From positions 25,899,547-25,963,546 of the forward strand of contig CM046873.1 in NCBI GenBank assembly GCA_025617745.1: a stretch of DNA of 64,000 bases. Reading direction: 5' to 3'. Positions 294 through 57,208 of this stretch are shown in pieces. This stretch comes from Heliocidaris erythrogramma. Its lineage: Eukaryota > Echinodermata > Echinoidea > Camarodonta > Echinometridae. The position numbers were made by a program, and so were the translations under genes. Each line of letters opens with the position of its first letter. Position 1 is the stretch's first letter. Below the pieces are notes generated by a model. That model did no database searches. It saw nothing but the letters and a program-made list of their open reading frames with translations, and was not told where the DNA came from.

Positions 294-350
294 AAATTCC
301 AACAGCTGAAACTCCCGAGACAACGTCGTCATCCCTTCAAAATATATCAG
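294..350 (+). CDS. Gene 1 cassette exon A (57 nt)
   Basis: Acceptor TTTAG, donor CAG|GTACCT, phase 1-1. Codes for IPTAETPETTSSSLQNIS with split codons at both ends. It is rich in Thr, Ser and Pro with one N-I-S sequon, like an O- and N-glycosylated linker. Confidence 0.75.
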
Positions 351-3300
351 GTACCTTACGTCAACTGCATTGCTTAATGAACATCGCATGCAATAGAGAT
401 TACTTCAAATTCCATACAACAACAACTGAAAGTATACGAATGCTTTGAAAGAGCAATATTCTATTCTATTGATACCATTGGTATCATTGGTCTTCCCCTA
501 ACCCCACTTATCTCTGAGTTCAAGTCTGAGGCAAACATGAAAAATGCATGTTTTAAATTCTTCATAAAAATTAAAGAATTTGCATTGTCATACATTTTAC
601 ATATTTTGTTGGAGAATATAATTCTATTTCATATAGCTTGTCTCAGAGATGTCATTCAGGTCTTTAATGATGATATACTAATGTACTTTGTATATTCCAG
701 GAAATATGACGACTGACGCCTCAACTGTCAAGATGGACACGACAGCAAAATTGACAGGTGAATCTTACCACTTCTATCTTTTTCAGCTACAACTCGTCTT
801 TTTTTTTTTTTTGCATTGATTAGCAAATTCTAAGGAATAAAGAGATTTAAATCTAGTTTTTGTCACATTTCAAATGAGTAAGTATCAACGCAAATATTTT
901 TTCTTTGAAGTACAATGTAAATGATTGGACGTAGAATGAATTCAAAGTGATTTTTCTTTTATAAAAGGTAATAGAATAGACTGCCCAAATTCGTAAAATG
1001 TCTATGATTGATCCATCTAAACATTTTTCGGGAACATTCGATATTCAGAATTTGTGTGTATTACTGTTTATTAGTGCGATATAATTATGTGTATTATATT
1101 TTGTATAATACGATGTGTTTCTTCAATATAGATATTGGATCATTCTATCTACTTTATTTATTTTATTCTTTATGAAGTGTAATACCGTCTATCCATTAAT
1201 ATCTTTCATATTTGTTCATTCTGTCTAGAAAGTCCAACAACTGAAGCCCCCCTGCCAGTGTCGGTACCCCTTCAAAATGTATCAGGTACCTGGTTACGTT
1301 ATTACTTAATGACATGAGCATCCTAAGATACGGAATCATAAAAAAATAACCTTTTGCAATAAGATTTTACTCGAATTTCTTAGAAATAACATTTAAATTC
1401 ATAACATTTTTACATTTTAACATAACATTTAAATTTGTAAAGTAAATACTTCATAAAAATTACAGAATTTGCATTGTCATACATTTTAGATATTTTGTTG
1501 GAGAATATAATTCTATTTCATATAGCTTGTCTCAGAGATGTCATTTAGGTCCTTAATGATGATATACTAATGTACATTGTATATTCCAGGAAATATGACG
1601 ACTGACGCCTCAACTGTCAAGATGGACACGACAGCAAAATTGACAGGTGAATCTTACCACTTCTATCTTTTTTCAGCTACAACTCGTCTTTTTTTTTTTG
1701 CATTGATTAGCAAATTCTAAGGAATAAAGAGATTTAAATCTAGTTTTTTTCACATTTCAAATGAGTAAGTATCAACGCAAATATTTTTTCTTTGAAGTAA
1801 AATGTAAATGATTGGACGTAGAATGAATTCAAAGTGATTTTTCTTTTATAAAAGGTAATAGAATAGACTGCCCAAATTCGTAAAATGTCTATCATTGATC
1901 CATCTAAATATTTTTGGGGAACATTCGATATTCAGAATTTGTGTGTATTACTGTTTATTAGTGCGATATAATTATGTGTATTATTTTGTATAATACGATG
2001 TGTTTCTTCAATATAGGTATTGGATCATTCTATCTACTTTATTTGTTTTATTCTTTATGAAGTGTAATACCGTCTATCCATTATTTCTTTCATACTTGTT
2101 CATTCTGTCTAGAAAGTCCAACAACTGAAGCCCCCCTGCCAGTGTCGGTACCCCTTCAAAATGTATCAGGTACCTGATTACGTTATTACTTAATGACATG
2201 AGCATCCTAAGATACGGAATTATAAAAAAATAAACTTTTTGCAATAAGATTTTACTCGAATTTTTTAGAAATAACATTTAAATTCATCTATAATATGTTT
2301 TTAGTCATTTCCTCACACAACATTTTAATGTAATGTACAGTTTTGATTATTCATTGTTTTGTTCTAGTTCGTTTTTTTTTCACTCTGTTTGCTTGTTGTT
2401 TTTTTCTCTCTCTGGCGACTGTTGTTGTCGTTTTGGTTGTTTTTGTTTTTTAAACTAATTCTCTCTATTTTACTAATTTCACCAACAGATTGTATGTCAA
2501 GCCCCTGCGAGAATGGAGGAACTTGTACGGAGACTCCCACAGGATACCGATGTTATAACTGTACTACAGGATTCTACGGTTTAACATGTTGTACGTGCTG
2601 AATTCTGGTAGTAATTAAAGTAGGAATGGTCTGGTTTTCTTACCTTTACAATGCTTTGGCGGTGGACAATTATTATCTGCAAATCATGATATTGCAATCG
2701 GAAATATCTTTTCAATTTGTATCATTTTATTTTATTACGTGTATATACACATATAAGCTTATCTAACAATATCACTGTCAGAATTCCTACCATTGGTTGC
2801 GATGCACACATTGTTTTGTTTTGTTTTGTTTTTTGTATTTTTTTTTTCAAATCGATACTGTTATGATATTTTTTTTAATGGTATTATGCAACAGATGTGA
2901 TATTCTAACCAAATAAATATATACCTCTCTCTCTCTCTCTCCCTTCCTCTATATGCCATTGCATCTCTGTTGATAGCATGCCCCATTCACACTCGTGATG
3001 TCGGTAATACCAGAGAGTACACCTTTCCTGGCATCAAGATTCCTGAGAACGTGACGTCATTTGACTTCGAGGTCAGTGCTAATAATGACGCGTACATCGG
3101 ACTGTCAAGAAGCAATGGGCCAGAACAATATATGTACGAAATAGGTCAGTTTGCTGTCAATGACTGGCAACATTTTCTCACAGGATAATAGATTTAAAGT
3201 ATCTGTGATATCTGCATACATTTATACTTAAGACGGTAATCATTCTGACTGAAATTTCAGTTATGTCAATTTCGAGTATCATCATAGAAGAAATGTTCCC

Positions 3301-4365
3301 TGAAAAAGGATTGCTCTTCAAAAGCCCTCATATTACAAAACAAATAGCTCAAAAGCTTGGACCGAACTTTCATGCCATGTGTGTGTAGTCCTACATACAC
3401 ATTTCTGTGTGCAGTGCGCGTGACTTTGAGTCAATTCTCAGTTTTCATTTCGCTAATTCCAAAACCTCACAATATAAATCAATTCGTATGTACTACCTAA
3501 TCAATCTTTCCTCAATGCTGCCACACAGTTTCTTTATAATATACTCGCATGACCAGAACTCAACTTCATCTTTAAGAGTTGAGTAATAATGAAATGTCTG
3601 AACATGGACAGCTGGCCATTATTCAGGTTTAATCAAATGGTAGACATTTGACGATGTATTTACCAGTATGGTCACAATAGTTCTTATCGGTGGAATATAT
3701 TTCGACAGAATGACATAGACGCTATGAGTCTGTCTGCACTGTAAAGTAGGTTAGAAAAAATTCTACCCAATGATTTTAGAGTGTGGCATTCTGTCATATG
3801 ACCAATGACAGATCTCCTTTGCAAACGGTTACATTATGTTATATCGTTGTGGCAACGACACACCTCTGACGGAGTTATCCCTTTCATTTTCATACAATAA
3901 CCCTGCCGTTTTTCTGAATTTCATTGTATCAGTAATAACTTTCAATAATTATTCTATTATTTTAGTGAGATTAATTTATTTGATTAAATCCTCTATGAAG
4001 TATCAAAAGAAACTTGATGTCATCCAATTACATGTTTTGTGAACGTCTTTGTGTTTTCCTATACAGCTATTGGTGTAAGGACGAATACTGGTGGTGGTAT
4101 TCGACGATGCGTTATTAAAAGGGATTTTTCTTGCGGCTTACTTGTTCAAATTGGAAATCCAGCCGCTATGGGGCTTTCTGGTATTCCGTTGTATGACCGT
4201 TATAACATATCCTTTGCAGACGGTCATATCAAGTTGTATCGCTATGGCGGCAGTACACCTCTGATGGAATTCAACGACCCACATCCTCTCGATATCAACT
4301 ATGTTGGAATCTGGACAGGGTACGGGTCTGAAGGGTATTGGAAATTCCCTTCCTTTTGCCAATAG
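294..4365 (+). CDS. Gene 1, 3' part: secreted cassette-EGF-FAMeT protein
   Basis: Eight exons can be read: 294-350 (A), 701-757 (B), 1229-1285 (C), 1590-1646 (B'), 2113-2169 (C'), 2489-2590 (EGF), 2977-3144 and 4067-4365 (FAMeT). All have AG acceptors and GT donors, and every internal exon is phase 1-1. Upstream exons lie outside the window. The chain is a Ser/Thr/Pro-rich stalk with an N-glycosylation sequon in each cassette, then a six-cysteine EGF module, then a complete FAMeT-like domain ending in TAG. Despite the family name there is no sign of a classical SAM-dependent methyltransferase fold; in animals this domain also occurs in extracellular proteins such as CPAMD8. Gene 1 differs from genes 2 and 3 by two extra cassettes and many replacements in the last exon. 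The domain assignment is firm; extracellular location is inferred. Confidence 0.78.
701..757 (+). CDS. Gene 1 cassette exon B (57 nt)
   Basis: Acceptor TTCCAG, donor ACAG|GTGAAT, phase 1-1. Codes for GNMTTDASTVKMDTTAKLT with an N-M-T sequon. Genes 2 and 3 have Pro for one Thr in the D-T-T-A stretch. Confidence 0.73.
1229..1285 (+). CDS. Gene 1 cassette exon C (57 nt)
   Basis: Acceptor TCTAG, donor CAG|GTACCT, phase 1-1. Codes for ESPTTEAPLPVSVPLQNVS. It shares the L-Q-N-(I/V)-S ending and the P-T-x-E core with cassette A, so A and C look like old duplicates. Confidence 0.74.
1590..1646 (+). CDS. Gene 1 cassette exon B' (second copy of B)
   Basis: Same coding sequence as the B exon at 701-757, including splice sites, 889 nt downstream. 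Found only in unit 1. Confidence 0.72.
2113..2169 (+). CDS. Gene 1 cassette exon C' (second copy of C)
   Basis: Same coding sequence as the C exon at 1229-1285, 884 nt downstream, with intact splice sites (donor GTACCT). Found only in unit 1. Confidence 0.72.
2489..2590 (+). CDS. Gene 1 EGF-like module 2 exon
   Basis: 102 nt, phase 1-1, acceptor AACAG, donor GTACGT. Six cysteines with EGF spacing: D-C-x4-C-x5-C-x8-C-x2-C-x8-C, and the motifs ENGGTC and GFYG. No calcium-binding DxNEC motif. The Met after D-C is Thr in genes 2 and 3. Read without splicing it meets TGA three codons later. Confidence 0.85.
2977..3144 (+). CDS. Gene 1 FAMeT domain, first exon
   Basis: 168 nt, phase 1-1, preceded by a (CT)n tract that serves as polypyrimidine tract. 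Codes for the N-terminal half of the Methyltransf_FA-like domain: R-E-Y-T-F-P, then N-V-T-S-F-D-F-E-V-S-A-N-N-D-A-Y-I-G-L-S and the closing Y-E-I, all typical of the family. The donor is GTCAGT, weaker than the GTGAGT of units 2 and 3. Confidence 0.82.
3655..3885 (+). pseudogene. Decayed second copy of FAMeT exon 2 inside the intron (unit 1)
   Basis: The stretch 3783-3880 aligns with the central part of the last exon (about 4180-4275): the shared words ATATGACC, ATCTCCTTTGCA, the GG(T/C)-TA-CAT-AT block, TTATATCG, TGGC, ACACCTCTGA occur in the same order. In the matching frame there is a TGA just before Q-I-S-F-A. An upstream ATCGGTGGAAT near 3687 may be the start of the same relic. No usable splice sites. 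Confidence 0.6.
4067..4365 (+). CDS. Gene 1 FAMeT domain, last exon with stop
   Basis: 299 nt from acceptor ATACAG to TAG. Codes for the C-terminal half of the domain: G-G-G-I-R-R, then GLLV, SGIPLYD, HIKLYRYGG, DPHPLDINYVGIWTG and G-Y-W-K-F-P-S-F. The family's I-G-G-W at the exon start is I-G-V-R here, and the penultimate residue is Cys rather than Gly. A good donor (CTCTGTGAGT) follows the stop, so reading on would require skipping the TAG. Confidence 0.85.
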
Positions 4366-12351: not shown

Positions 12352-12645
12352 CAGTGGCGGATCCAGGGGGGGCACTTCCGGCCCGTGTGCCCCCCCCCCC
12401 CCCCCTTGGAAGATAAGTATGCATTTTGACCATAAAGGATCCACCCTTTTGTCGATTGTGCCCCCCTTTTAGAATGAAAAATTAGGTCTGGCGAAAAAAG
12501 AAATTGTCGCTCCACCCCCCCCCCCCCCCCATGAGCGAGCTGGAAAGACCAAAATAATACAGGTCTACCTTTTCCAAAAGTTGACAAGACTGTTTTTTGT
12601 GCCTCTCCCCCCCCCCCCCCCCCCCTTATCCTGGATCCGCCCCTG
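12352..12645. mobile_element. hAT-type short element, full copy (unit 1)
   Basis: Termini CAGTGGCGGATCCAGG and, inverted, CAGGGGCGGATCCAGG. Flanked on both sides by the 8-base duplication GGTGAAGA (12344-12351 and 12646-12653), the hallmark of hAT transposition. The inside has several C-runs and no transposase. Unit 1 has 294 bp; units 2 and 3 have 189 bp after an internal deletion between C-runs. Confidence 0.9.
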
Positions 12646-13120
12646 GGTGAAGATTGTTATCAATATGAATAAAATCATAAAGAGTAGCATTTTGTAGAAG
12701 ACGTTATCGTAGATGGCCAACATGGACATAGAAATAGTCATAATCATTCAATGTTAATGTTTACTCTCGATTTAGGGGTTTAGAATTTCATTAAAACGAT
12801 AAAACATGTGCTACCGTTTTAATGAAACCCGAAAATTCCAGGTAACCTCCTAAATGGCCATCATTTTCCTAAAAGTGTCTGGAAGAGAGTTACTTTTAAA
12901 CAATATAAATGTTATTGTTATGCTTCATCGATATGATGACCCATGAAAGTTTACATAAGTGTGCTTAAGTTTTAGGATAGCCTGGGATTCAAAGTAGTAT
13001 CCAAAATAGTGATAAACAAGTTTAGTCTTAAATTATCAAGTAAAATTTTAGTAAAATCATAAAACAGTTTCTTCGGCGGTCATTCTATTTGTACACTGTC
13101 GGGTTGCGCGCATGGAGAGC

Positions 13121-13182
13121 GGACGGTTCGTGGTGAAATAGCTAAGCGCGATCGAGCATTTCATCTTTTCCACGAACCGTCC
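13121..13182. repeat. Strong hairpin, 13-bp arms (copies at 31598 and 53807)
   Basis: GGACGGTTCGTGG at 13121 pairs with CCACGAACCGTCC ending at 13182; an inner TGAAAT/ATTTCA adds to the stem. Perfectly kept in all three units. A third GACGGTTCGTGG lies 210 bp downstream. Confidence 0.8.
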
Positions 13183-13309
13183 TCTTTGTTTACAAACCGA
13201 TTGTAGCTAAAATACCCCGTCTAAAAAAATTGTTATTCATACTATATAAAACTTTAAAACCTATGCTATCAAGCCTTTACATTTATTTTCAATAATCATC
13301 TACTTTAAG

Positions 13310-13740
13310 ATGCAGAAAATTCCGTTTAAAAAAGTCCTTTCCTTTAAACGCGTTTTCAGCAAAACCGAGTTTCGCCTCAAAACACGCAGAAATGACGGTT
13401 CGTGGGGCGGGCGACGATTTGTTAAAATTATTATGCAGCAATTTAGATATAAATCCAGAGAGGATGCAGTTGTTGATATTGTAGTTGACGATCAAAGTCA
13501 TATATGTACACGTAGTGGTAGAATAGTTAAAAATCATATACGTTTAGTACTTTAGTTGTATTTACACTGTATATACATTTTTAGTTGTTTGTTGACTGTT
13601 TTATTGAGAAATGTTGTTTAAAATGTAAACTATAGACCCATGAACATGTATTCAATATACATGTACCATTTATATTATTGTAAATATGTTGTGCTCTCAT
13701 ACCCCGAGAGGGTGTCGATAGAGTGAATAAAATCTTACGT
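13310..13740 (+). mobile_element. Possible 3' end of a retroelement
   Basis: An 81-codon open frame ends with T-R-S-G-R-I-V-K, a wording often found at the tail of retroelement polyproteins. It is followed by a tail with ATACCCCGAGAGGG and AATAAA, ending near 13735. The reverse complement of that tail occurs at 8740-8790, so it is a dispersed repeat end. In unit 2 (31787 onward) the frame is broken; in unit 3 (53996-54241) it is open. The call rests on a short motif. Confidence 0.35.
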
Positions 13741-13909
13741 TATCTTTATACCATGTTTACATGGTATAGAAACTTGGCCCTTTCGAACACTTAGGCCAAT
13801 GGTATCCTATGATTTATTTGTATAGATACGATTACAGAAAACCTTCTTGTAAATGAAGAGGGGGCGAGACGATTCTCCCCATATCACTTTATATTTCCAA
13901 GATTTTAAC

Positions 13910-14832
13910 CTAGTCTAAGATTGGCCTAATTTCATCATTATTCCCTAAATCAGGGTCTATCATAGACACTAATATTACAACTCCATGGCGTAAACGCGTT
14001 TTGGTCTGGTGGATAAAGCGTTGGTCCCATCCCGCCGTACTTGCAAGTGCGTGCTGTCTACGTGCAAAAACATGGACAAAAACATGGTTTTTGCAATATG
14101 CTGCAAAGTGTCCCTTTAAATGGCATTTGTTGCACTTGGCATCTTTGGCTGGACAATCATCTCTTTTATGGGAAGGCGTCTTGCCACAGCTTCCACACTT
14201 CTGGTTCTGCTGCTTCTTTTTGTTGGAGGTGTTTGTTTTTGTCTTATATCTGTTTGTTTGTTTCACAGCCTCTACATTTACTTCATCTCGTTCATGGAAC
14301 AACACTGATCGCTGCTTCCTCACTGTTTCACTTTGTCTTCATTGTTCTACTGCCTTTTCAAGTGTCGGTTGATCATCAAGTTGCAGTCTCTCTGAGAGCT
14401 TATGATCTAGCAGACCTACAACGATCCTATCTCTGATCATTTCGTCTTTAAGGGCATCATACTTGCAGTGTTCACTGAGACAGAACAGATCAGTTATGAA
14501 AATGGGAGCTGTTTTCTAGCATTGAACTTTGCTCGTTCGAAGATGACGTTGTGATTCTTTACAAAATGTTCATCAAACTTATTCCTGATCACATCATACT
14601 TTGTCTTGTCTGCTCCACTTAGTTTAAATGACATTAGGATATCATCTGCCTGGTCCTCCATCGTGTATATCATTGTGTTCACTTGGGATTCTTCAGTTGA
14701 AGAGCAAAGGTTGGATGCTTGCCTAAACCTTTCAAACCGGCGTATCCATTTTAGCCATTATTGTGGTGTAGAGAAGTTAAATGCTTTTGGTGGTGCTATT
14801 TGATAGGTTGCTTTTGGCCCAGTTGTTGCCAT
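13910..14832 (-). mobile_element. LTR retrotransposon gag remnant (unit 1)
   Basis: A gag-like reading starts at ATG 14832, has an in-frame TAA after about 25 codons, and resumes through a conserved block (14682-14497) typical of Gypsy-like gag. It then changes frame to a C-terminal part (14323-13910). That part has two zinc knuckles: C43-x2-C46-x5-H52-x4-C57 and the canonical C64-x2-C67-x4-H72-x4-C77. No protease, RT or integrase follows. Described as a dead copy only. Confidence 0.8.
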
Positions 14833-15032
14833 TTTCAGAGATCATTCACTTTTCAGCATGTATGTTTACTGACTAAACTACTGCACTAACGTGAAATTGA
14901 GTATATGCGGCAACACAAACTTGTACTCACCAGCGATGCTGACTGTCACTTTTCTGGACGTCAAAAGTCACTTTTCAAGCTAAACTATCTCCACTTTGTT
15001 ACTGCTGTCCGCGATCCCACTATTTGACACCA

Positions 15033-15180
15033 TGTTGCGTATTGTCAGGTTATTATTCTGGTCTCCTGAGATGGGTTAACACTAATCGACGGTAGGCAAT
15101 AATTCAGTCAGACAAGCAATGTTTAGTGACTGATATCTTTAATGCACCCAATAGCTTCCAACTTACATCATTATGCCACA
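15033..15180 (-). mobile_element. Single 148-bp LTR with primer-binding site (unit 1)
   Basis: On the minus strand it begins TGTGGCATAATG and ends ACGCAACA, that is TG...CA. It is directly followed by TGGTGTCAAATAGTGGGATC (15032-15013), which has the look of a tRNA primer-binding site, and then by the gag leader. The upstream edge cuts a LINE RT frame exactly. No second LTR is found on the far side of gag, so the element is truncated. Confidence 0.75.
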
Positions 15181-15614
15181 CCATGTAACAAAATAGGTAG
15201 CACTATACGATCAAACAATTCACATTGAGTATCAAGAGATAACTGCAATCGTTTAGTTTTTACCAACATACTGAACAAACCTTTCCTAGCTTGAGTCACC
15301 TGTTTGGCTATTGCCTTAGGAAAACTGACATTGTAATTAAATTCAACTCCTAAATAATTAAAGTCATCTACTACTTCAAGTTCATCCCCATTAAAAATAA
15401 ATCTAGGTACTTTCCTCACCTTTCCCCTTGAAAAAATAACAATTTTCGTCTTACTCGTATTTACTTGAAGATACGATTTCTCGCAGTACTCCTCCGCAGC
15501 ATTCAATGCTTTCTGAAGCTCATCCGGATTTTCAGCAAAAATAAGAGTATCATCAGCATATAACAAACAATAAAGCCTGGAAAAAATGAATATCCTCATC
15601 ATATCATCCATCAT
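15181..15614 (-). mobile_element. LINE reverse transcriptase fragment (unit 1)
   Basis: About 145 codons of non-LTR reverse transcriptase with the catalytic Y-A-D-D at residues 19-22, followed by the N-T-S-K-T-K and F-x-Y-L-G-V motifs of the palm/thumb region. It stops at L-L-H-G where the LTR begins. The 5' part of the RT is missing: upstream of the motif the sequence is unrelated. Confidence 0.88.
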
Positions 15615-15749
15615 AGAAAGGCCCCTATAAAATTTAAAATATGACTTTCGAAATCATTCAAATCATTCAAATCATGGTAAAGCTATCTTTTATCTCGGTT
15701 GCTACGCTATGTATCTCGCACAAATAATAAATGTGCCTTAAAGGCATTT

Positions 15750-16102
15750 GGTAACTTTGTGGAAGCTTGATTTAATAACTTGTTGAATTTTTATATCTGT
15801 CTTGTATAATGATGTTCAGAAGGATAAATAAATAGCCAGGCATAGAAAGGTTTTCAAATATGTTATGCTATTATTAAGATATCTGTGAGTGAATACTCCC
15901 ATTTAAGAAAGCGTATGGCCATACGCTTTTGTCTTACACTGAGTCTGGCATTTCCGGTCACTTTCATATGTTTACTTTTGTGCAGCACATGATGATTTTG
16001 AAGTGCTTTTTTCGAATGGGCTTCATTTTTACACCACATTACATACACTGATAGCATGTAAGACCAGACAGGTCATATTTTATCAAGCCTCCACAAAGTT
16101 AC
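15750..16102. mobile_element. Inverted-repeat short element, about 350 bp (unit 1)
   Basis: GGTAACTTTGTGGAAGCTTGAT at the left reappears inverted as ATCAAGCCTCCACAAAGTTACC at the right. In the centre is the perfect palindrome GCGTATGGCCATACGC (15912-15927); units 2 and 3 have one changed base there and about 18 extra bases nearby. Confidence 0.75.
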
Positions 16103-16252
16103 CTAATCACTTTAAATACGGTAACTATTGAAATGCAAGTATTTTGAGAGAGTGGGGGAGTGTTAACCCAAAGAACCCTCGCCCGCCGAGCCTCTTCGTC
16201 GAGTGCTCACTTGATATTTTGTTGCATTATTAGGTATAACCATACCAGAGAC

Positions 16253-16255
16253 ATG
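16253..16255 (+). other. Alternative start: ATG directly at a splice donor (gene 2)
   Basis: ATG|GTAAAT would join in phase 0 to the exon at 16441 and give M-S-L-T-L-T-L-V-F-F-T-M-A-T-L-S-C-V-V-V, a signal-peptide-like start. It then needs the weak acceptor at 17416. Same layout at 34743 and 56957. Less favoured than the phase 1 reading of the exon. Confidence 0.3.
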
Positions 16256-16440
16256 GTAAATGTAGTAGAAATTTTGCTGCTCCAAATTTTACAACGAGTT
16301 CTCGGTATTTTTTGCTGATGTTATAAGGTAATCTCATTGACAGGCCTGTACTATACAGATATTTTGTCAAGGTTGAGCAGTTAGCTATATTAAAAAGCAC
16401 CCTAATCAATGATTAAATTTTGTTTCATTAATTTGTATAG

Positions 16441-16504
16441 TCGTTGACGCTCACCTTGGTGTTTTTCACCATGGCTACACTGTCATGCGTAGTGGTGAAT
16501 TCAG
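16441..16504 (+). CDS. Gene 2 first recognised exon (64 nt)
   Basis: Clear borders: TATAG acceptor and TCAG|GTGAGT donor. Read in phase 1 it gives V-D-A-H-L-G-V-F-H-H-G-Y-T-V-M-R-S-G-E-F and exits in phase 2. In that frame 18 of 20 complete codons end in a pyrimidine, a strong coding pattern, and the exit phase fits the good acceptor at 17384. Read in phase 0 it is hydrophobic and signal-like (see the ATG at 16253). In genes 3 and 4 one base changes Gly to Ser in the first reading or Met to Ile in the second. Confidence 0.6.
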
Positions 16505-19500
16505 GTGAGTCTCAATTTCTTGTTGATGTTGTATTCGGATCATACACTATTCCCTGCTTTAAAATTCATAAACTGAGCATTTTAATCTAATCCAAGCCAC
16601 ATACTTCCGAGTGAAATATTTTTCCCTGTTGTATAGTCGGTCAATAACTATCCTTGTAATGGATTTTTCAAGTGTGTCATTGAATAGGAAGAACATTCTT
16701 AAGGCAATTAGCATGGTTAGCATTCAAATTCATCTTCAGTTTCCTCCGTTCTACCCGAGAAGGGGATGTACATTTAGCATTTACATGTATATAATCATTC
16801 ATTTTTCTATTCATCTTTCTATATATTTATTCATATAATTATTTATTTTTACTTATTTATTATTAGTTATTAATTTTAGTCTCCTTCATTATTTTCCTTG
16901 AATATCAGCAGCAAAATACTTCTATCAAGGAGTTATCACAGAACTGTGATAACTCATTGCTTCTATTAATCGAATCTCACCTTATACACGCCTTTAAACA
17001 CACGTTTAAAAATAAAACACTGCAAAAAATTTACATAGCCGAACATATCGTATCGGTGTGCCTGGTAATAAAAATATGTAGCATTGGCTGCCAGTTTTCG
17101 TATGTGTGGTGGTAATTCATGGAATATTAACTTACTATGAATCCAGTAACCATTCTAAACTGAGGCATGTTATTAGGGAATATCGAAATAAGATACATTC
17201 ATCGCACTTTAAAATCTTCATACCTCAGTCGCATCGCCCAAAAGACTCCACACCGACTCAAAAATGAAGACTCTTTGGCCACTGGTGTCGTTTGTGTTAA
17301 TGTGACTGACGTAAAACAGATCCGCTTATGAATAAACAATTTCCTTTAACAACCGTATTGATTGGACAGCAGATTTTCTTTCAGTATTTATTTTTGGTTA
17401 AATTTGACCTCACAAGAAGGGAGTTCATGTCCTGATGGATACAATCTAAAGTACACTCTACCGATGTTTGAGCGGTGTAAGATGAAGAGGATCAACGGGA
17501 GCGAGGTACAGCTCATACCCAAGCTCATCCCTCGAAAATTCGGCGCTAAGAATTGCTATGGACAGCTGCACGACGGCATTCCATCGGGCTATCGTGTCTG
17601 TCGTATTCCAGGTTGGTTTATCATTTTTGGCGACGGGCATCGAAGGGAAGTGGATATCCCACATCCAAACACCCACACACATAAGTGCATGGGGCGGGGG
17701 AAGAAGGCCTGTTTGGTGAACCCTTCCCTCCCTCTCTCCCCCCCCCCCCCCCCCCCCATATTGGAGGGAAAAAGCAATATTCTACCGCCAACGCAAGTTC
17801 CGGAACACACCACCACATATTTCGGCACCCCATTTCAGATAAGGGCATTGAGAGGGTTTGTGTACCTCATTGTCTTATTTTATAAATGTTGCACCCAAAC
17901 TAATATATTTTGATGACCCCTAGATAAATTGTCACTAGAATTAAAATATTACAAATTTGCTGGCTCGCTCGCTTCACTTTGTCCCAAAATTTAGAAAATG
18001 GAAGTTGGTATTCTGACAAGCGACAGTAGCTCCTCCACCTGTAAAATTTGTCCTTACACCTATGCACACACAACACACGCATACCAACACGCACACACAG
18101 TTGTTAGTTGTGTAAGTGCTAGCTTTGCGGGATAATTCTAATCGGGATCTCTACTCCAAGGGGTGCAAGAATCACGTGGATTTCCTCCGTCATAAGTTGT
18201 TCGTCATCAGGTGGAAACGTTACAGAGAGAAGACATGAACGTTAAACAAGTCATGATTACAATGTAATAAGTAATTGTTTTTCTTCAAATTCTAAAATGT
18301 TAAATGTTGAAATATTTAGATTTTCAGATTTTCAAAAGTCTAAATTTGCAAAATTTCAAATCAATGATATTTTTGCATTTGAACTTATAAAATATATTTA
18401 ATTCTCATCACCTGTCTCACGGCTAAATCATGTACCCTTAATTGGGCTTACTATGAAATAATAAAGATACTACTTTTTTGTTTATTCCCAATATTTTCAT
18501 GAATTTTTCCAAGTTAATTTAACTTACTATTATATACTACTTTCTTACTTCTTTATTCCGTATGTTTCATGCCTACGTTAAAAAGTTGAAAAATAACAAC
18601 ATTCTTTTTCATTGTAGATTGTCTGACGCAGCCTTGCAAGAACGGTTGGTGTCAGGAAGAGATGACGAACTACACATGCATTTGTCCGCCCGAGTTTACT
18701 GGAATACACTGTGAATTCAGTGAGTCCAGAAGGTCCCTCTGTCTATTTCTATATCACGCTATTGCCTACTGTCATAAATATAGCTTGTGTTTATGCTGGT
18801 TCATTAAAAAAAAATCAGCTTTCACTGACCCGTTTCCTTGTTGTTGTTGTTTTCTGATTTTATTCATATCACCAAAAGGTCAGTGAAGCCTTCCTATTTA
18901 ATCAATAGGAAAACTTTTGTTTTCAACTGAGCAACAATTTCACAGAAGAAAATGACAACATTACTTAGAATCCTAATGAAAAACAATTAATTGAGGTCCA
19001 CAGGGTCCATTGACTTACCATAAATAAGGAAATTGAGAAAACTTTATATATTCAAAAATTAACGCGAATCATTTAATTCAGGGGTGTTCACATGAATTAA
19101 TTTTACTGTATAATACGCTGTGTGTCTTCAAGTGATATTACATGTTCTGCTTAATTTCTTTCCTATTCGTGTGTTACGTTTAGAAATTCCAACAGCTGAA
19201 ACTCCCGAGACAACGTCGTCATCCCTTCAAAATATATCAGGTACCTTACGTCAACTGCATTGCTTTATGAAGATCGCATGCAATACAGGTTATTTCAAAT
19301 TCCATAAAAACAACAACTGAAAGTATACGAATGCTTTGAAAGAGCAATATTCTATTCTATTGATACCATTGGTATCAGTGGTCTTCCCCTAACCCCACTT
19401 ATCTCTGAGTTCAAGTCTGAGGCAAACATGAAAAATGCATGTTTTTTTTTGTAAAGTAAATTCTTCATAAAAATTAAAGAATTTGCATTGTCATACATTT

Positions 19501-22500
19501 TAGATATTTTGTTGGAGAGTATGATTCTATTTCATATAGCTTGTCTCAGAGATGTCATTCAGGTCTTTAATGATGATACACTAATGTACATTGCATATTC
19601 CAGGAAATATGACGACTGACGCCTCAACTGTCAAGATGGACACGCCAGCAAAATTGACAGGTGAATCTTACCACTTCTATCTTTTTTCAGCTACAACTCG
19701 TCTTTTTTTTTTTTGCATTGATTAGCAAATTCTAAGGAATAAAGAGATTTAAATCTAGTTTTTTTCACATTTCAAATGAGTAAGTATCAAGCAAATATTT
19801 TTTCTTTGAAGTACAATGTAAATGATTGGACGTAGAATGAATTCAAAGTGATCTTTCTTTTATAAAAGGTAATAGAATAGACTGCCCAAATTCGTAAAAT
19901 ATCTATCATTGATCCATCTAAATATGTTTGGGGAACATTCGATATTCAGAATTTGTGTGTATTACTGTTTATTAGTGCGATATAATTATGTGTATTATAT
20001 TTTTTATAATACATATGTGTTTCTTCAATATAGATATTGGATCATTCTATCTACTTTATTTCTTTTATTCTTTATCAAGTGTAATACCGTCTATCCATTA
20101 TTTCTTTCATTCTGTCTAGAAAGTCCAACAACTGAAGCCCCCCTGCCAGTGTCGGTACCCCTTCAAAATGTATCAGGTACCTGGTTACGTTATTACTTAA
20201 GATTTTACTCGAATTTCTTAGAAATAACATTTAAATTCATCTATAATATGTTTTTAGTCATTTCCTCACACAACATTTTAATGTAATGTACAGTTTTGAT
20301 TCTAGTTCGTTTTTTTCACTCTGTTTGCTTGTTGTTTTTTTTTCTCTCTCTGGCGACTGTTGTCGTTTTGGTTGATTTTGTTTTTTAAACTAATTCTCTC
20401 TATTTTACTAATTTCACCAACAGATTGTACGTCAAGCCCCTGCGAGAATGGAGGAACTTGTACGGAGACTCCCACAGGATACCGATGTTATAACTGTACT
20501 ACAGGATTCTACGGTTTAACATGTTGTACGTGCTGAATTCTGGTAGTAATTAAAGTAGGAATGGTCTGGTTTTCTTACCTTTACACTGCTTGGACGGTGG
20601 ACAAGTAATATCTGCAATATGATTTTGCAATCCGAAATATAGTTTTGATTTGTATTATTTAATTTTATGACGTTTATATACACGTATACGCTTATCTAAC
20701 AATATCAATGTCAGAATTCCTACCATTGGCTGCCATCCACACATTGTTTTGTTTGTTTGTTTTTTTTTTTTTTAAATCGATACTGTTGTTATGATATTAC
20801 TGTTACTGGTATTATGTAACAGATGTGATGTTCTAACCAAATAAATATATACCCCTCTCTCTCTCTCTCTCTGCCTCGATGTGTCATTGCATCTCTGTTG
20901 ATAGCATGCCTCATTCACACTCTTGATGTAGGTCGTACAAGGGAGTACACCTTTCCTGGCATCAAGATTCCTGAGAACGTGACGTCATTTGACTTCCAGG
21001 TCAGTGCTAATAATGACGCACACATCGGACTGTCAAGAAGCAATGGACCGGAACAATATATGTACGAAATAGGTGAGTTTGCTGTCAATGACTGGTAACT
21101 CATTTGAGGAACATATCTAGGATTCGTAAATTTATTGATCAAACTACTTGTCATCATGCTGCAAGGTCACTTATTCTTTCCAGACTAGACTATTGTAATG
21201 GGCTTCTTTCCTCTATACCAAAGTCTCATGTAAACCGTCTACAGCGTCTACAGAATTGGGCTGCACGTCTTGTTTTTGAGGTTGGCAGAAGTCATTCTTC
21301 CAAACCTTTACTTCGTTCCCTTCACTGGCTGCCCGCCAGAGTATCATCTTCAAACGTATCATCTTCAAATTAGTTCTTTATGTTTATAAATCTATCAATA
21401 ACCAGGCTCCAGGGTACATATCTGAATGCTTAACTGTATATACACCTAGTAGAAATCTCAGATCCTCAAATCACAACCTTCAGCTCAGCTACCCAATGAC
21501 CCGAAATTTGTCAGGTGATAGGAATTTCACAGTTACTGCATCTAGGCTATGGAATAATCTCCCCTTGACCATTAGACAGTCAGCATCCATAAAGACCTTT
21601 GAAAAAGCTGTGAAATCATATTTATTTTAAATCCGCTATCAAACTTTGTAACAGGTACATTCATTACATTTTGTCTCCCTAAAAACCACCTGGTAGTTCC
21701 CACATGGACGATTGAAGAGTTTTCTGATTTGTGTTTATATACAAATTATAATGTGTTCTATAATTTAAATATTTTTGTAAACGCTCCGAGCCTTATGGGA
21801 AGGGCGTACTAAATGCTTATTGTATTGTATTGTATTGTATTATAACATTTTCTCACAGGATATTAGATTTTAAGTATTTGTGATATCTGCATATATGTAT
21901 ACTTAAGACGGTTATCATTCTGACTGAAATTTCAGTTACGTAAATTTTGAGTATCATCATAGAAGAAACGTTCCCTGAAAAAGGATTGCTCTTCAAAAGC
22001 CCTCATATTACAAAAAAAAATAGCTGAAAAGCTTGGACCGAACTGTCATGCCATATGTGTGTGGAGTCCTATATACACTTTTCTGTGTGCAGTGCACGTG
22101 ACTTTGAGTCAAATTCTTATCATTTTGCTGATTCCAAAACCTCACAATATACATCAATTCGTATGTACTACCTAATCAATCTTTCCTCAATGCTGCCACC
22201 CAGTTTCTGTATAATATACTTGCATGACCAGAACTCAACTTCATCTTTAAGAGGTGAGTAATAAGGAAATGTCTGAACATGGACAGCTGGTCGTTATTTA
22301 TGTTTAATCAAATGGTAGACATTTGACGATGTATTTACCAGTATGGTCACAATAGTTCTTATCGGTGGAATATATTTCGACAGAATGACATAGACGCTAT
22401 GAGTCTGTCTGCACTGTAAAATAGGTTAGATAAAGTTTTACCCAATGATTTTAGAGTGTGGCGTTCTGTCATATGACCAATGACAGATCTCCTTTGCAAA

Positions 22501-23295
22501 CGGTTACATTATGTTATATCGCTGTGGCAACGACACACCTCTGACGGAGTTATCACTTTCATTTTCATACAATAACCCTGCCGTTTTTCTTCAGTAATAA
22601 CTGTCAATAATTATTATATTGGTGAGATCGCATTGCGACTGATTATATCATTTGATTAAATCCTCTATAACATCATCATTAAATTGGTTCCACATTTCAC
22701 TTCATTATTTTTTCCTCATTCAATTACAACAATGGATTATCTTCTCATAGCAACAAAAAGTCCAAAAATTGTACTATATCCTGTTTTTCCTGCCTAAAAA
22801 TCCAACATCTTAAACACGTTTATGCACTAAACGCTCCATTTCAAAAATCGCGATACGGGTAAGATGGCTAGTGATGTTAAATAATCCACTTTTGCCAACT
22901 TGAGGAAGAATACCAATATGCAGTATGAAGTATCGAAAGAAACTTGATGTCATCCAGTTACATGTTTTGTGAACGTCTTTGTGTTTTCCTATACAGCTAT
23001 TGGTGGATGGGAGAACACTGGTGGTGGTATTCGACGATGCATTATTAAACGGGATGTTTCTTGCGGCTTACTTGTTAAAATCGATGATCCAGCCGCTATG
23101 GGGCTTTCTGGTATTCCGTTATATGACCATTATAAGATCTCCTTTGCAGGCGGTCATATCAAGTTATATCGCTATGGCGGCAGTACACATCTGATGGAAT
23201 TCAACGACCCACATCCTCTCGATATCAACTATGTTGGAATCTGGACAGGGTTCGGGTCTGAAGGGTATTGGAAATTCCCTTCCTTTGGCCAATAG
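16441..23295 (+). CDS. Gene 2: secreted 4-Cys / EGF / cassette / EGF / FAMeT protein
   Basis: Exons: 16441-16504, 17385-17611 (or from 17417), 18618-18719 (EGF1), 19184-19240 (A), 19604-19660 (B), 20120-20176 (C), 20424-20525 (EGF2), 20905-21072 and 22997-23295 (FAMeT, TAG). About 355 codons from the second listed exon to the stop, all in frame. Donors are mostly GTGAGT, GTGAAT, GTACCT or GTACGT. From EGF1 to the first FAMeT exon every exon is phase 1-1. At least seven N-glycosylation sequons are visible, consistent with an extracellular glycoprotein. The 5' end is unresolved: either upstream exons (candidate at 11566) or a start ATG at 16253-16255 that abuts a donor. No transmembrane segment is seen after the start. 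It is the only copy in the window with all downstream exons present and intact. Confidence 0.75.
16930..16955. repeat. Perfect hairpin in intron (copies at 35412 and about 57630)
   Basis: GAGTTATCACAG and CTGTGATAACTC with a 2-base loop. In unit 2 the stem is 16 bp (35412-35445, CAAGGAG...CTCCTTG); units 1 and 3 have a mismatch in the outer part. Confidence 0.8.
17385..17611 (+). CDS. Gene 2 four-cysteine module exon (unrecognised domain)
   Basis: Donor CCAG|GTTGGT. Two acceptors are possible: TTTCTTTCAG at 17384 (strong, entry phase 2, adds I-Y-F-W-L-N-L-T-S-Q) or ACAAG at 17416 (weak, entry phase 1). The common part has S-S-C-P-D-G-Y-N, F-E-R-C-K-M-K, N-G-S, K-N-C-Y-G-Q-L-H-D-G and Y-R-V-C-R-I-P. 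Four cysteines suggest two disulfides; sequons N-L-T and N-G-S. I do not recognise the family. A C-run follows in the intron and varies in length between units. Confidence 0.65.
18618..18719 (+). CDS. Gene 2 EGF-like module 1 exon
   Basis: 102 nt, phase 1-1, acceptor TTGTAG, donor TTCA|GTGAGT. Six cysteines: D-C-x4-C-x4-C-x8-C-x1-C-x8-C with K-N-G-W-C and P-E-F-T-G. Carries an N-Y-T sequon. This C4-x-C5 spacing is the usual EGF form, unlike the x2 of module 2. Confidence 0.87.
19184..19240 (+). CDS. Gene 2 cassette exon A
   Basis: Identical coding sequence to gene 1 cassette A; the first codon is completed by A from EGF1, giving Lys. Confidence 0.75.
19604..19660 (+). CDS. Gene 2 cassette exon B
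   Basis: As gene 1 cassette B but with Pro for Thr (D-T-P-A-K). Confidence 0.74.
20120..20176 (+). CDS. Gene 2 cassette exon C
   Basis: Same as the gene 1 C cassette. No second B-C pair follows; the EGF2 exon comes 247 nt later. Confidence 0.74.
20424..20525 (+). CDS. Gene 2 EGF-like module 2 exon
   Basis: Six cysteines as in gene 1, starting D-C-T-S-S-P-C. Ends in donor GTT|GTACGT. Confidence 0.85.
20905..21072 (+). CDS. Gene 2 FAMeT domain, first exon
   Basis: 168 nt, phase 1-1, consensus donor ATAG|GTGAGT. Five residue changes against gene 1 (for example C-L-I-H-T-L for C-P-I-H-T-R), with the core F-D-F-Q-V-S-A-N-N-D-A-H-I-G-L-S kept. Confidence 0.85.
21100..21844 (+). mobile_element. 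CR1/L2-type LINE 3' tail in the FAMeT intron (unit 2)
   Basis: The end of a LINE ORF2: R-K-F-I-D-Q-T, then S-R-L-D-Y-C-N-G-L-L, L-Q-R-L-Q-N-W-A-A-R-L-V, L-H-W-L-P. After a frame change come A-P-G-Y-I-S-E and S-R-L-W-N-N-L-P. It ends with TTGTA/TATTG repeats. It begins 27 nt after the exon donor. Unit 1 has the empty site (GACTGGCAACATTTTC at 3162-3177). Confidence 0.9.
22330..22565 (+). pseudogene. Decayed second copy of FAMeT exon 2 (unit 2)
   Basis: Counterpart of 3655-3885; best match to the live exon at 22458-22560 (about 23110-23205 in the exon). Interrupted by TGA. Confidence 0.6.
22997..23295 (+). CDS. Gene 2 FAMeT domain, last exon with stop
   Basis: 299 nt to TAG. Begins A-I-G-G-W-E-N-T-G-G-G-I-R-R, the family form including the Trp that gene 1 has lost, and ends G-Y-W-K-F-P-S-F-G-Q. 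Identical to gene 3. Confidence 0.88.
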
Positions 23296-30932: not shown

Positions 30933-31121
30933 CAGTGGCGGATACAGGGGGGGCACTTCCGGCCCGTGTGCCCCCCCCCCCCCCCCCTGGAAGATAAGTA
31001 TGCATTTTGACCATAAAGGATCCACCCTTTTGTCGATTGTGCCCCCCTTTTAGAATGAAAAATTAGGTCTGGCGAAAAAAGAAATTGTCGCTCCACCCCC
31101 CCTTATCTGGATCCGCCCCTG
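30933..31121. mobile_element. hAT-type short element, internally deleted (unit 2)
   Basis: Same insertion site and 8-base duplication as in unit 1. About 105 bp between two C-runs is missing. Confidence 0.88.
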
Positions 31122-32384
31122 GGTGAAGATTGTTATCAATATGAATAAAATCATAAAGAGTAGCATTTTGTAGAAGACGTTATCGTAGATGGCCAACATG
31201 GACATAGAAATAGTCATAATCATTCAATGTTAATGTTTACTCTCGATTTAGGGGCTTAGAATTTCATTAAAACGATAAAACATGTGCTACCGTTTTAATG
31301 AAACCCGAAAATTCCAGGTAACCTCCTAAATGGCCATCATTTTCCTAAAAGTGTCCGGAAGAGAGTTACTTTTAAACAATATAAATGTTATTGTTATGCT
31401 TCATCGATATGATGACCCATGAAAGTTTACATAAGTGTGCTTAAGTTTTAGGATAGCCTGGGATTCAAAGTAGTATCCAAAATAAGTGATAAACAAGTTT
31501 AGTCTTAAATTATCAAGTAAAATTTTAGTAAAATCATAAAACAGTTTCTTCGGCGGTCATTCTATTTGTACACTGTCGGGTTGCGCGCATGGAGAGCGGA
31601 CGGTTCGTGGTGAAATAGCTAAGCGCGATCGAGCATTTCATCTTTTCCACGAACCGTCCTCTTTGTTTACAAACCGATTGTAGCTAAAATACCCCGTCTA
31701 AAAAAATTGTTATTCATACTATATAAAACTTTAAAACCTATGCTATCAAGCCTTTACATTTATTTTCAATAATCATCTACTTTAAGATGCAGAAAATTCC
31801 GTTTAAAAAAGTCATTTCCTTAAACGCGTTTTCAGCAAAACCGAGTTTCGCCTCAAAACACGCAGAAATGACGGTTCGTGGGGCGGGCGACGATTTGTTA
31901 AAATTATTATGCAGCAATTTAGATATAAATCCAGAGAGGATGCAGTTGTTGATATTGTAGTTGACGATCAAAGTCAAGTATTTACGCGTAGTGGTAGAAT
32001 AGTTAAAAATCATATACGTTTAGTACTTTAGTTGTATTTACACTGTATATACATTTTTAGTTGTTTGTTGACTGTTTTATTGAGAAATGTTGTTTAAAAT
32101 GTAAACTATAGACCCATGAACATGTATTCAATATACATGTACCATTTATATTATTGTAAATATGTTGTGCTCTCATACCCCGAGAGGGTGTCGATAGAGT
32201 GAATAAAATCTTATGTTATCTTTATACCATGTTTACATGGTATAGAAACTTGGCCCTTTCGAACACTTAGGCCAATGGTATCCTATGATTTATTTGTATA
32301 GATACGATTACAGAAAACCTTCTTGTAAATGAAGAGGGGCGAGACGATTCTCCCCATATCACTTTATATTTCCAAGATTTTAAC

Positions 32385-33306
32385 CTAGTCCAAGATTAGC
32401 CTAATTTCATCATTATTCCCTAAATCAGGGTCTATCATAGACACTAATATTACAACTCCATGGCGTAAACGCGTTTTGGTCTGGTGGATAAAGCGTTGGT
32501 CCCATCCCGCCGTACTTGCAAGTGCGTGCTGTCTACGTGCAAAAACATGGACAAAAACATGGTTTTTGCAATATGCTGCAAAGTGTCCCTTTAAATGGCA
32601 TTTGTTGCACTTGGCATCTTTGGCTGGACAATCATCTCTTTTATGAGAAGGCGTCTTGCCAGAGCTTCCACACTTCTGGTTCTGCTGCTTCTTTTTGTTG
32701 GAGGTGTTTGTTTTTGTCTTATATCTGTTTGTTTGTTTCACAGCCTCTACATTTACTTCATCTCGTTCATGGAACAACACTGATCGCTGCTTCCTCACTG
32801 TTTCACTTTGTCTTCATTGTTCTACTGCCTTTTCAAGTGTCGGTTGATCATCAAGTTGCAGTCTCTCTGAGAGCTTATGATCTAGCAGACCTACAACGAT
32901 CCTATCTCTGATCATTTCGTCTTTAAGGGCATCATACTTGCAGTGTTCACTGAGACAGAAAGATCAGTTATGAAAATGGGAGCTGTTTTCTAGCATTGAA
33001 CTTTGCTCGTTCGAAGATGACGTTGTGATTCTTTACAAAATGTTCATCAAACTTATTCTTGATCACATCATACTTTGTCTTGTCTGCTCCACTTAGTTTA
33101 AATGACATTAGGATATCATCTGCCTGGTCCTCCATCGTGTATATCATTGTGTTCACTTGGGATTCTTCAGTTGAAGAGCAAAGGTTGGATGCTTGCCTAA
33201 ACCTTTCAAACCGGCGTATCCATTTTAGCCATTATTGTGGTGTAGAGAAGTTAAATGCTTTTGGTGGTGCTATTTGATAGGTTGCTTTTGGCCCAGTTGT
33301 TGCCAT
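32385..33306 (-). mobile_element. LTR retrotransposon gag remnant (unit 2)
   Basis: Same remnant with the same internal stop and frame change. The second Cys of the first zinc knuckle is Ser here. Confidence 0.8.
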
Positions 33307-33506
33307 TTTCAGAGATCATTCACTTTTCAGCATGTATGTTTACTGACTAAACTACTGCACTAACGTGAAATTGAGTATATGCGGCAACACAAACTTGTAC
33401 TCACCAGCGATGCTGACTGTCACTTTTCTGGACGTCAAAAGTCACTTTTCAAGCTAAACTATCTCCACTTTGTTACTGCTATCCGCGATCCCACTATTTG
33501 ACACCA

Positions 33507-33654
33507 TGTTGCGTATTGTCAGGTTATTATTCTGGTCTCCTAAGATGGGTTAACACTAATCGACGGTAGGCAATAATTCAGTCAGACAAGCAATGTTTAG
33601 TGACTGATATCTTTAATGCGCCCAATAGCTTCCAACTTACATCATTATGCCACA
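33507..33654 (-). mobile_element. Single 148-bp LTR (unit 2)
   Basis: Same length, same ends and same insertion point in the LINE as in unit 1. Confidence 0.75.
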
Positions 33655-34087
33655 CCATGTAACAAAATAGGTAGCACTATATGATCAAACAATTCACATT
33701 GAGTATCAAGAGATAACTGCAATCGTTTAGTTTTTACCAACATACTGAACAAACCTTTCCTAGCTTGAGTCACCTGTTTGGCTATTGCCTTAGGAAAACT
33801 GACATTGTAATTAAATTCAACTCCTAAATAATTAAAGTCATCTACTACTTCAAGTTCATCCCCATTAAAAATAAATCTAGGTACTTTCCTCACCTTTCCC
33901 CTTGAAAAAATAACATTTTCGTCTTACTCGTATTTACTTGAAGATACGATTTCTCGCAGTACTCCTCCGCAGCATTCAATGCTTTCTGAAGCTCATCCGG
34001 ATTTTCAGCAAAAATAAGAGTATCATCAGCATATAACAAACAATAAAGCCTGGAAAAAATGAATATCCTCATCATATCATCCATCAT
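33655..34087 (-). mobile_element. LINE reverse transcriptase fragment (unit 2, frameshifted)
   Basis: Same fragment with a 1-base loss near 33912 that splits the frame just after N-T-S-K-T-K. Confidence 0.88.
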
Positions 34088-34222
34088 AGAAAGGCCCCTA
34101 TAAAATTTAAAATATGACTTTCGAAATCATTCAAATCATTCAAATCATGGTAAAGCTATCTTTTATCTCGGTTGCTACGCTATGTATCTCGCACAAATAA
34201 TAAATGTGCCTTAAAGGCATTT

Positions 34223-34593
34223 GGTAACTTTGTGGAAGCTTGATTTAATAACTTGTTGAATTTTTATATCTGTCTTGTATAATGATGTTCAGAAGGATAA
34301 ATAAATAGCCAGGCATAGAAAGGTTTTCAAATATGTTATGCTATTATTAAGATATCTGTGAGTGAATACTCCCATTTAAGAAAGCGTATGGCCACACGCT
34401 TTTGTCTTACACTGAGTCAATGAGGGGAAATGAGTCTGGCATTTCGGTCACTTTCATATGTTTACTTTTGTGCAGCACATGATGATTTTGAAGTGCTTTT
34501 TTCCAATGGGCTTCATTTTTACACCACATTACATACACTGATAGCATGTAAGACCAGACAGGTCATATTTTATCAAGCCTCCACAAAGTTACC
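34223..34593. mobile_element. Inverted-repeat short element (unit 2)
   Basis: Same element as 15750-16102 with the short internal insertion. Confidence 0.75.
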
Positions 34594-34930
34594 TAATCAC
34601 TTTAAATACGGTAACTATTGAAATGCAAGTATTTTGAGAGAGTGGGGGAGTGTTAACCCAAAGAACCCTCGCCCGCCGAGCCTCTTCGTCGAGTGCTCAC
34701 TTGATATTTTGTTGCATTATTAGGTATAACCATACCAGAGACATGGTAAATGTAGTAGAAATTTTGCTGCTCCAAATTTTACAACGAGTTCTCGGTATTT
34801 TTTGCTGATGTTATAAGGTAATCTCATTGACAGGCCTGTACTATACAGATATTTTGTCAAGGTTGAGCAGTTAGCTATATTAAAAAGCACCCTAATCAAT
34901 GATTAAATTTTGTTTCATTAATTTGTATAG

Positions 34931-34994
34931 TCGTTGACGCTCACCTTGGTGTTTTTCACCATAGCTACACTGTCATGCGTAGTGGTGAATTCAG
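34931..34994 (+). CDS. Gene 3 first recognised exon
   Basis: As gene 2 with one base changed (Gly to Ser in the preferred frame; Met to Ile in the signal-like frame). The upstream ATG|GTAAAT is at 34743. Confidence 0.58.
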
Positions 34995-55718: not shown

Positions 55719-55866
55719 TGTTGCGTATTGTCAGGTTATTATTCTGGTCTCCTAAGATGGGTTAACACTAATCGACGGTAGGCAATAATTCAGTCAGACA
55801 AGCAATGTTTAGTGACTGATATCTTTAATGCGCCCAATAGCTTCCAACTTACATCATTATGCCACA
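55719..55866 (-). mobile_element. Single 148-bp LTR (unit 3)
   Basis: Same length, same ends and same insertion point as in units 1 and 2. Confidence 0.75.
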
Positions 55867-56300
55867 CCATGTAACAAAATAGGTAGCACTATATGATCAA
55901 ACAATTCACATTGAGTATCAAGAGATAACTGCAATCGTTTAGTTTTTACCAACATACTGAACAAACCTTTCCTAGCTTGAGTCACCTGTTTGGCTATTGC
56001 CTTAGGAAAACTGACATTGTAATTAAATTCAACTCCTAAATAATTAAAGTCATCTACTACTTCAAGTTCATCCCCATTAAAAATAAATCTAGGTACTTTC
56101 CTCACCTTTCCCCTTGAAAAAATAACAATTTTCGTCTTACTCGTATTTACTTGAAGATACGATTTCTCGCAGTACTCCTCCGCAGCATTCAATGCTTTCT
56201 GAAGCTCATCCGGATTTTCAGCAAAAATAAGAGTATCATCAGCATATAACAAACAATAAAGCCTGGAAAAAATGAATATCCTCATCATATCATCCATCAT
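55867..56300 (-). mobile_element. LINE reverse transcriptase fragment (unit 3)
   Basis: Same fragment, frame open as in unit 1. Confidence 0.88.
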
Positions 56301-56435
56301 AGAAAGGCCCCTATAAAATTTAAAATATGACTTTCGAAATCATTCAAATCATTCAAATCATGGTAAAGCTATCTTTTATCTCGGTTGCTACGCTATGTAT
56401 CTCGCACAAATAATAAATGTGCCTTAAAGGCATTT

Positions 56436-57144: not shown

Positions 57145-57208
57145 TCGTTGACGCTCACCTTGGTGTTTTTCACCATAGCTACACTGTCATGCGTAGTGGT
57201 GAATTCAG
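57145..57208 (+). CDS. Gene 4 first recognised exon
   Basis: Same as gene 3, including the Gly to Ser (or Met to Ile) base. Confidence 0.58.

Follow-up and report, generated by a model that had tools for sequence, protein, structure and literature searches.

What does a gene make of a row of short exons that are all of the same length and the same phase? The question is raised by a 64,000-nucleotide stretch of the Heliocidaris erythrogramma genome (called the window here), which carries tandem copies of one gene. This gene contains 57-nt cassette exons of three types, A, B and C, and the first-pass annotation read them as a device for making protein length and glycan number variable. To all appearances the array is a product of common exon duplication, a mechanism already known, and not a novel device. 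Exon duplication, together with the cassette numbers found in genes 1 and 2, is the best explanation overall, and one that we hold to be probable.

The exons were identified by reading the sequence of gene 2, and those of the other copies were found by blastn projection; all of them lie on the + strand. Gene 2 comprises, in this order, a signal-peptide-like exon called by eye (16441-16504), a cysteine exon (17417-17611), EGF1 (18618-18719), the cassettes A (19184-19240), B (19604-19660) and C (20120-20176), EGF2 (20424-20525), FA1 (20905-21072) and FA2 (22997-23295), with the stop at its end. A search by eye for the start-codon exon of gene 2 did not find one. The single in-frame ATG of the signal exon is an isoleucine codon in genes 3 and 4, so the true start of gene 2 probably lies further upstream. 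Gene 1 ends with EGF2 (2489-2590, phase 1-1), FA1 (2977-3144) and FA2 (4067-4365, stop at its end), the Methyltransf_FA domain of the last two having been named on the gene 2 model. The 5' exons of gene 3 (34931-34994, 35949-36143 and 37137-37238) lie upstream of a gap of 500 N, and its EGF2 (42651-42752), FA1 (43132-43294) and FA2 (45218-45516) are also present. Gene 4 is represented by its 5' exons only (57145-59459), with no cassette between them and the window end.

The five cassettes of gene 1 fill exactly the range given by the first-pass annotation (294-2169), in the order A-B-C-B-C, with AG before and GT after each: A at 294-350, B at 701-757, C at 1229-1285, and second copies of B (1590-1646) and C (2113-2169) that are identical to the first copies. 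Each is 57 nt long and of phase 1-1, and each type has, as had been noted, a single N-x-S/T sequon (NIS in A, NMT in B, NVS in C). When both strands of the window were scanned with A, B and C as queries, allowing up to 18 mismatches, 11 cassettes were obtained: the five in 294-2169 and six more, starting at 19184, 19604 and 20120 in gene 2 and at 41410, 41830 and 42347 in gene 3, where A (41410-41466), B (41830-41886) and C (42347-42403) lie downstream of the gap. A single nt (T to P) separates the B of gene 2 from its counterpart in gene 1. Extra or decayed cassettes were sought across the window by profile scans, which gave nothing beyond the known 11 that was better than E 5.8 (A/C) or E 17 (B). 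All 11 have AG/GT borders and an open phase 1-1 frame, and their neighbours match them in phase; they are mutually related and so do not amount to 11 independent tests, and 115 of 322 unrelated AG..57 nt..GT segments are likewise open in the cassette phase. Such borders and frames, fitting the phase of the neighbouring exons in every case, make it extremely improbable that the cassettes are unused as exons.

In their equal phase the cassettes follow the gene as a whole. The gene 2 model has seven internal exons (cysteine, EGF1, A, B, C, EGF2 and FA1), every one of them of phase 1-1, and the shared phase therefore needs no special design. The equal length can be followed through the DNA of the cassettes. 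A and C are identical at 44 of 57 nt, and their alignment score is attained by none of 1000 dinucleotide shuffles. B scores 6 against C, where shuffles average -14.3 and 0 of 1000 attain 6, and it scores 0 against A, which 3 of 1000 shuffles attain. As ungapped identity, the likeness of B to A is attained in 44 of 1000 shuffles and that of B to C in 10. Among 322 control segments of the form AG..57 nt..GT, drawn from both strands outside the cassettes, none attains the B-C or the B-A score. The B-C score is attained by 0 of 13,031 57-mers taken at every third base of the first 40 kb, and of 586 57-mers drawn from the remaining exons of this gene the best reaches -4 against C, compared with 6 for B. 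When five scoring schemes were applied to the 322 segments, none attained the B-C score in any of the five or the A-B score in four (nine of ten comparisons); in the tenth, the ungapped A-B score, 12 of 322 did so. The B alignments hold two one-base gaps, which may mean a frame shift inside B, and shuffled sequences gain about equally from gaps. At the peptide level B has no recognisable likeness to A (600 of 1000 shuffles are equally good) and a weak likeness to C (42 of 1000 are as good).

The introns were compared in the same way. Those that precede A and C align better than any of 500 shuffles, and the score is still reached by 0 of 500 when the last 40 bases are left out; blastn of the whole gene 2 introns did not report this pair at E up to 0.01. 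The introns downstream of A and C show no kinship (190 of 500 shuffles), and those around B show no clear kinship to the introns of A or C (461, 448, 224 and 43 of 500 shuffles). From these comparisons we conclude that A, B and C all come from one 57-nt exon and that A is closer to C than either is to B; the link between A and C is firm, and the evidence for B is good but indirect. The cassettes would then be tandem descendants of a single 57-nt phase 1-1 exon, with A and C, their upstream intron included, as the older pair and B as a more diverged copy. A functional need for the shared length was considered and rejected, since common descent explains it: with A and C alike at so many positions and the DNA of B pointing to the same ancestor, equal length calls for no special design.

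Cassette number varies among the paralogues, in agreement with the earlier reading: five were counted in gene 1, three in gene 2 and three in gene 3. The count for gene 1 is that within the window; this gene begins beyond the window edge, so more cassettes may exist upstream of A. The difference between genes 1 and 2 lies in two tandem B-C blocks of gene 1 (554-1444 and 1443-2337, + strand), which are 95% identical by blastn and about 889 bp apart from start to start. Compared with each other, the two B-C units show 16 differences in 780 positions; compared with the unit of gene 2, they show 19 in 736 and 18 in 734. Eleven substitution sites set the two copies in gene 1 apart from those in genes 2 and 3, none supports another pairing, and internal indels at alignment columns 333, 557 and 650 agree with this grouping; contrary to it is a gap of 2 nt at column 243, common to the second unit of gene 1 and to gene 2. 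By these sites and indels the extra B-C pair is placed in the gene 1 lineage, where it arose or was homogenised. The junction of the blocks, placed by eye at approximately 1403-1434 (+ strand), contains a short filler that from 1422 repeats a 14-mer found just before it, at 1386; such a filler may well be the mark of repair or replication. Through genomic duplication of a B-C block of about 889 bp, gene 1 came to have a longer linker, A-B-C-B-C, where gene 2 has A-B-C.

A difference of this kind could also be made by the assembly, if two haplotypes had been joined in tandem, and either the extra B-C pair or gene 3 might have such an origin. The sole run of N in the window (40864-41363) falls between the EGF1 and A exons of gene 3, with gene 2 on one side and the cassettes of gene 3 on the other. 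The blocks of genes 2 and 3 that flank it (19137-40863 and 41364-63135) are 98.6% identical by blastn and show 118 substitutions in 20,934 aligned bases (21 full 1-kb windows), a divergence that might also be met between alleles in a polymorphic animal. The assembly may thus have set a second haplotype in tandem as gene 3. Because of the gap, and because the frame is broken in its FA1, which is 5 nt shorter than that of gene 2, gene 3 is doubtful and may be a pseudogene or contain an assembly error. Genes 1 and 2, however, share one stretch without N, and the contrast of five cassettes with three accordingly appears as sound as the assembly itself, independently of gene 3. Both B-C copies of gene 1 lie on this stretch, with their mutual differences and the filler junction between them, and the divergence between genes 1 and 2 over seven stretches of the gene body is 2.7 to 10.4%, which also argues against an artefact. 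It is highest in the intron between EGF2 and FA1 (10.4%) and lowest in the 73 bases that precede FA2 (2.7%), with 6.5% for the FA1-FA2 intron and 7.1% downstream of the stop. We regard the artefact as improbable. The stretches before the 5' exons of gene 2 (12616-16440) and gene 3 (31093-34930) differ at 20 of 3819 bases, and this figure, set against those for gene 1 and gene 2, points to exchange or conversion acting unevenly along the gene array.

Under a rival account, regulated exon skipping, single genes would yield isoforms of differing cassette number, and the equal-phase exons would serve that purpose. The uniform 57 nt and phase 1-1 of the 11 cassettes favor this view, as does the finding that when the donors of EGF1, A, B and C are joined to the acceptors of A, B, C and EGF2, the seam codon is a sense codon, never a stop, for each of the 16 combinations. 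Duplicated symmetrical exons are described as prone to skipping in one report, where a reviewer remarks that skipped exons lie mostly in disordered regions (PMC6335736). The same phase makes all internal exons of gene 2 equally skippable, however, the EGF modules included. The donor sites are mixed in this respect: G at +5 is absent from all 11 cassette donors and present in the five other donors of gene 2, but the cassette donors carry G at -1, and their pairing with U1 (-7.1 to -8.4 kcal/mol) falls inside the range of those five (-0.7 to -11.7 kcal/mol). Weak donors were for this reason rejected as evidence of skipping. Regulated skipping seems unlikely on balance. We infer routine inclusion of every cassette, a spacer role for the linker and use of the sequons. 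The earlier proposal that the length can change without breaking the frame stands as far as the seams and the observed duplication are concerned; for the variability itself being selected, no evidence was found.

The protein that contains the cassettes is best read from the gene 2 model, in which Pfam finds Methyltransf_FA (PF12248; 4.4e-22, 78.8 bits against a cut-off of 24.2) and EGF (PF00008; 8.3e-07, 29.6 bits against 21.5), the latter on two stretches when E values up to 1 are admitted; hEGF (PF12661), at 16.4, falls short of its cut-off of 29.3. The cassettes are placed between the two EGF-like exons, and the model ends with the Methyltransf_FA domain. No membrane anchor or hydrophobic tail after the signal region was visible by eye in this model, whose first exon was not found. 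The word stalk, by which the cassettes had been described, fits less well than linker, since they join two EGF-like exons and no hydrophobic tail is seen. With the cassettes so placed and no anchor apparent, the protein is probably secreted, with the order EGF-linker-EGF-Methyltransf_FA. In this tandemly repeated gene the cassettes would encode a cysteine-free, Ser/Thr-rich, sequon-bearing linker between two EGF-like modules. They have neither cysteine nor aromatic residues, and Ser and Thr make up 8, 7 and 5 of the 19 residues in A, B and C, a composition that would also suit O-glycans.

The sequons were thought to occupy similar positions in the three types, which is not the case: among the 19 residues of a cassette, the site is number 17 in both A and C and number 2 in B. 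As a consequence every seam of the A-B or C-B kind brings two sites close together (N-[IV]-S-G-N-M-T), with a lone site before EGF2. The presence of one sequon per cassette is in itself unremarkable, judging from shuffled peptides, of which 35% for A, 35% for B and 20% for C contain one, and from A and C not being independent. The gene 2 model has seven sequons, four of them beyond the cassettes. In human cells, closely spaced NXS sites reportedly belong to those skipped by the co-translational oligosaccharyltransferase (PMC4750078), so two glycans per seam are not to be assumed. The linker might still work as a graded spacer. The addition of B-C pairs would then govern both its length and its glycan load: the twin sequon of each A-B or C-B seam would place glycan clusters at the meeting points of exons, and paralogues or isoforms would differ in steps of 38 residues and two sequons. 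We think this quite improbable.

The number of cassettes may, on the other hand, have no consequence at all. If the length of the linker were functionless, duplications that keep the frame would go unpunished, and the difference in copy number would be neutral; this departs from the duplication account on function only. The filler at the duplication junction, as read by eye, the uneven divergence along the array and the occurrence of sequons near the level of chance given the composition are all in keeping with neutrality. So is the comparison of A with C, in which the excess of 12 nonsynonymous changes over 1 synonymous change (dN 0.365, dS 0.067) is not significant (Fisher P 0.15, from rounded counts). 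As proof of positive selection these figures were rejected, resting as they do on 13 changes. For the FA exons of genes 1 and 2, dN is 0.062 and dS is 0.132. The cassettes are, however, slightly better kept than the introns around them: in the A-B-C region, gene 1 departs from gene 2 at 1 of 171 exon positions and at 30 of 879 intron positions (Fisher P 0.047), with 0 and 8 indels, respectively. This conservation of exons over introns is marginal, and would lend mild support to coding use. The identity of both B copies and of both C copies in gene 1 also speaks against neutrality. We treat a neutral copy-number difference as a serious contender, somewhat short of an even chance, and retain exon duplication, with all cassettes spliced in as a spacer, as the preferred account.

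The array has relatives among known systems. In modular extracellular proteins of animals, exons with the same phase on both sides form symmetrical modules that can be duplicated without harm to the frame, and many such proteins were put together from modules of this kind (PMC6335736). The cassettes have in common with these modules the flanking phase 1, seen in all seven internal exons of gene 2, and tandem exon duplication; the unit duplicated here is a short piece of linker, not a folded domain. The micro-exon genes of schistosomes (PMC4350168) likewise have a secreted product and small symmetrical exons in series. In those genes such exons are most of the coding region and differential splicing gives variant proteins, whereas the cassettes make up 171 of 1101 nt in the known exons of gene 2, and the cassette gene differs also in having EGF and Methyltransf_FA domains. 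The sea star footprint proteins Sfp3, Sfp4a and Sfp7 are secreted and have EGF-like and FAMeT domains (PMC9382459). The same two domain types occur here, the likeness being one of description, and passages of that report on these proteins leave a cassette linker unmentioned; it calls the role of FAMeT in the footprint unknown (PMC9382459). A FAMeT domain has also been reported in mussel shell repair (PMC8194122). A PDB search with the EGF2 and FA exons returned 49 sequences, none of them named as a FAMeT-type protein; 48 are confined to query residues 1-49, the EGF part, and one is a cytochrome matching residues 5-63 (E 0.028). For FA2, collections of virus and prokaryote contigs gave 4 and 55 pattern matches, of which tblastn confirmed 0. 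No account of this exon array was met in the literature searched (titles and abstract starts, among the matches listed). The locus provides a readable example of an extracellular linker growing by whole exons, in which one can see the older copies together with a recent duplication of a block and the junction it left, and in which two neighboring genes on one ungapped stretch differ in outcome. If isoforms or individuals were also to differ, linker length could be studied as a quantitative trait.

Some further features of the window lie outside the cassette region. A partial, diverged copy of FA2 (72-76% identical) is found within the FA1-FA2 intron of all three genes (3784-3876, 22464-22551 and 44685-44772), and by these copies exon duplication appears to have touched the domain exons as well. 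The same intron has an insertion of about 745 nt in gene 2 (21100-21843) and gene 3 (about 43322-44067), absent from gene 1; in gene 2 the insertion has TATTG-type repeats at its end. Rfam gave 0 matches at gathering scores. Upstream of the 5' exons, two retroelement open reading frames lie on the minus strand (15171-15653 and 55857-56339); the first matches RVT_1 at 1.4e-12, and the second, which was itself outside that scan, is nearly identical to it.
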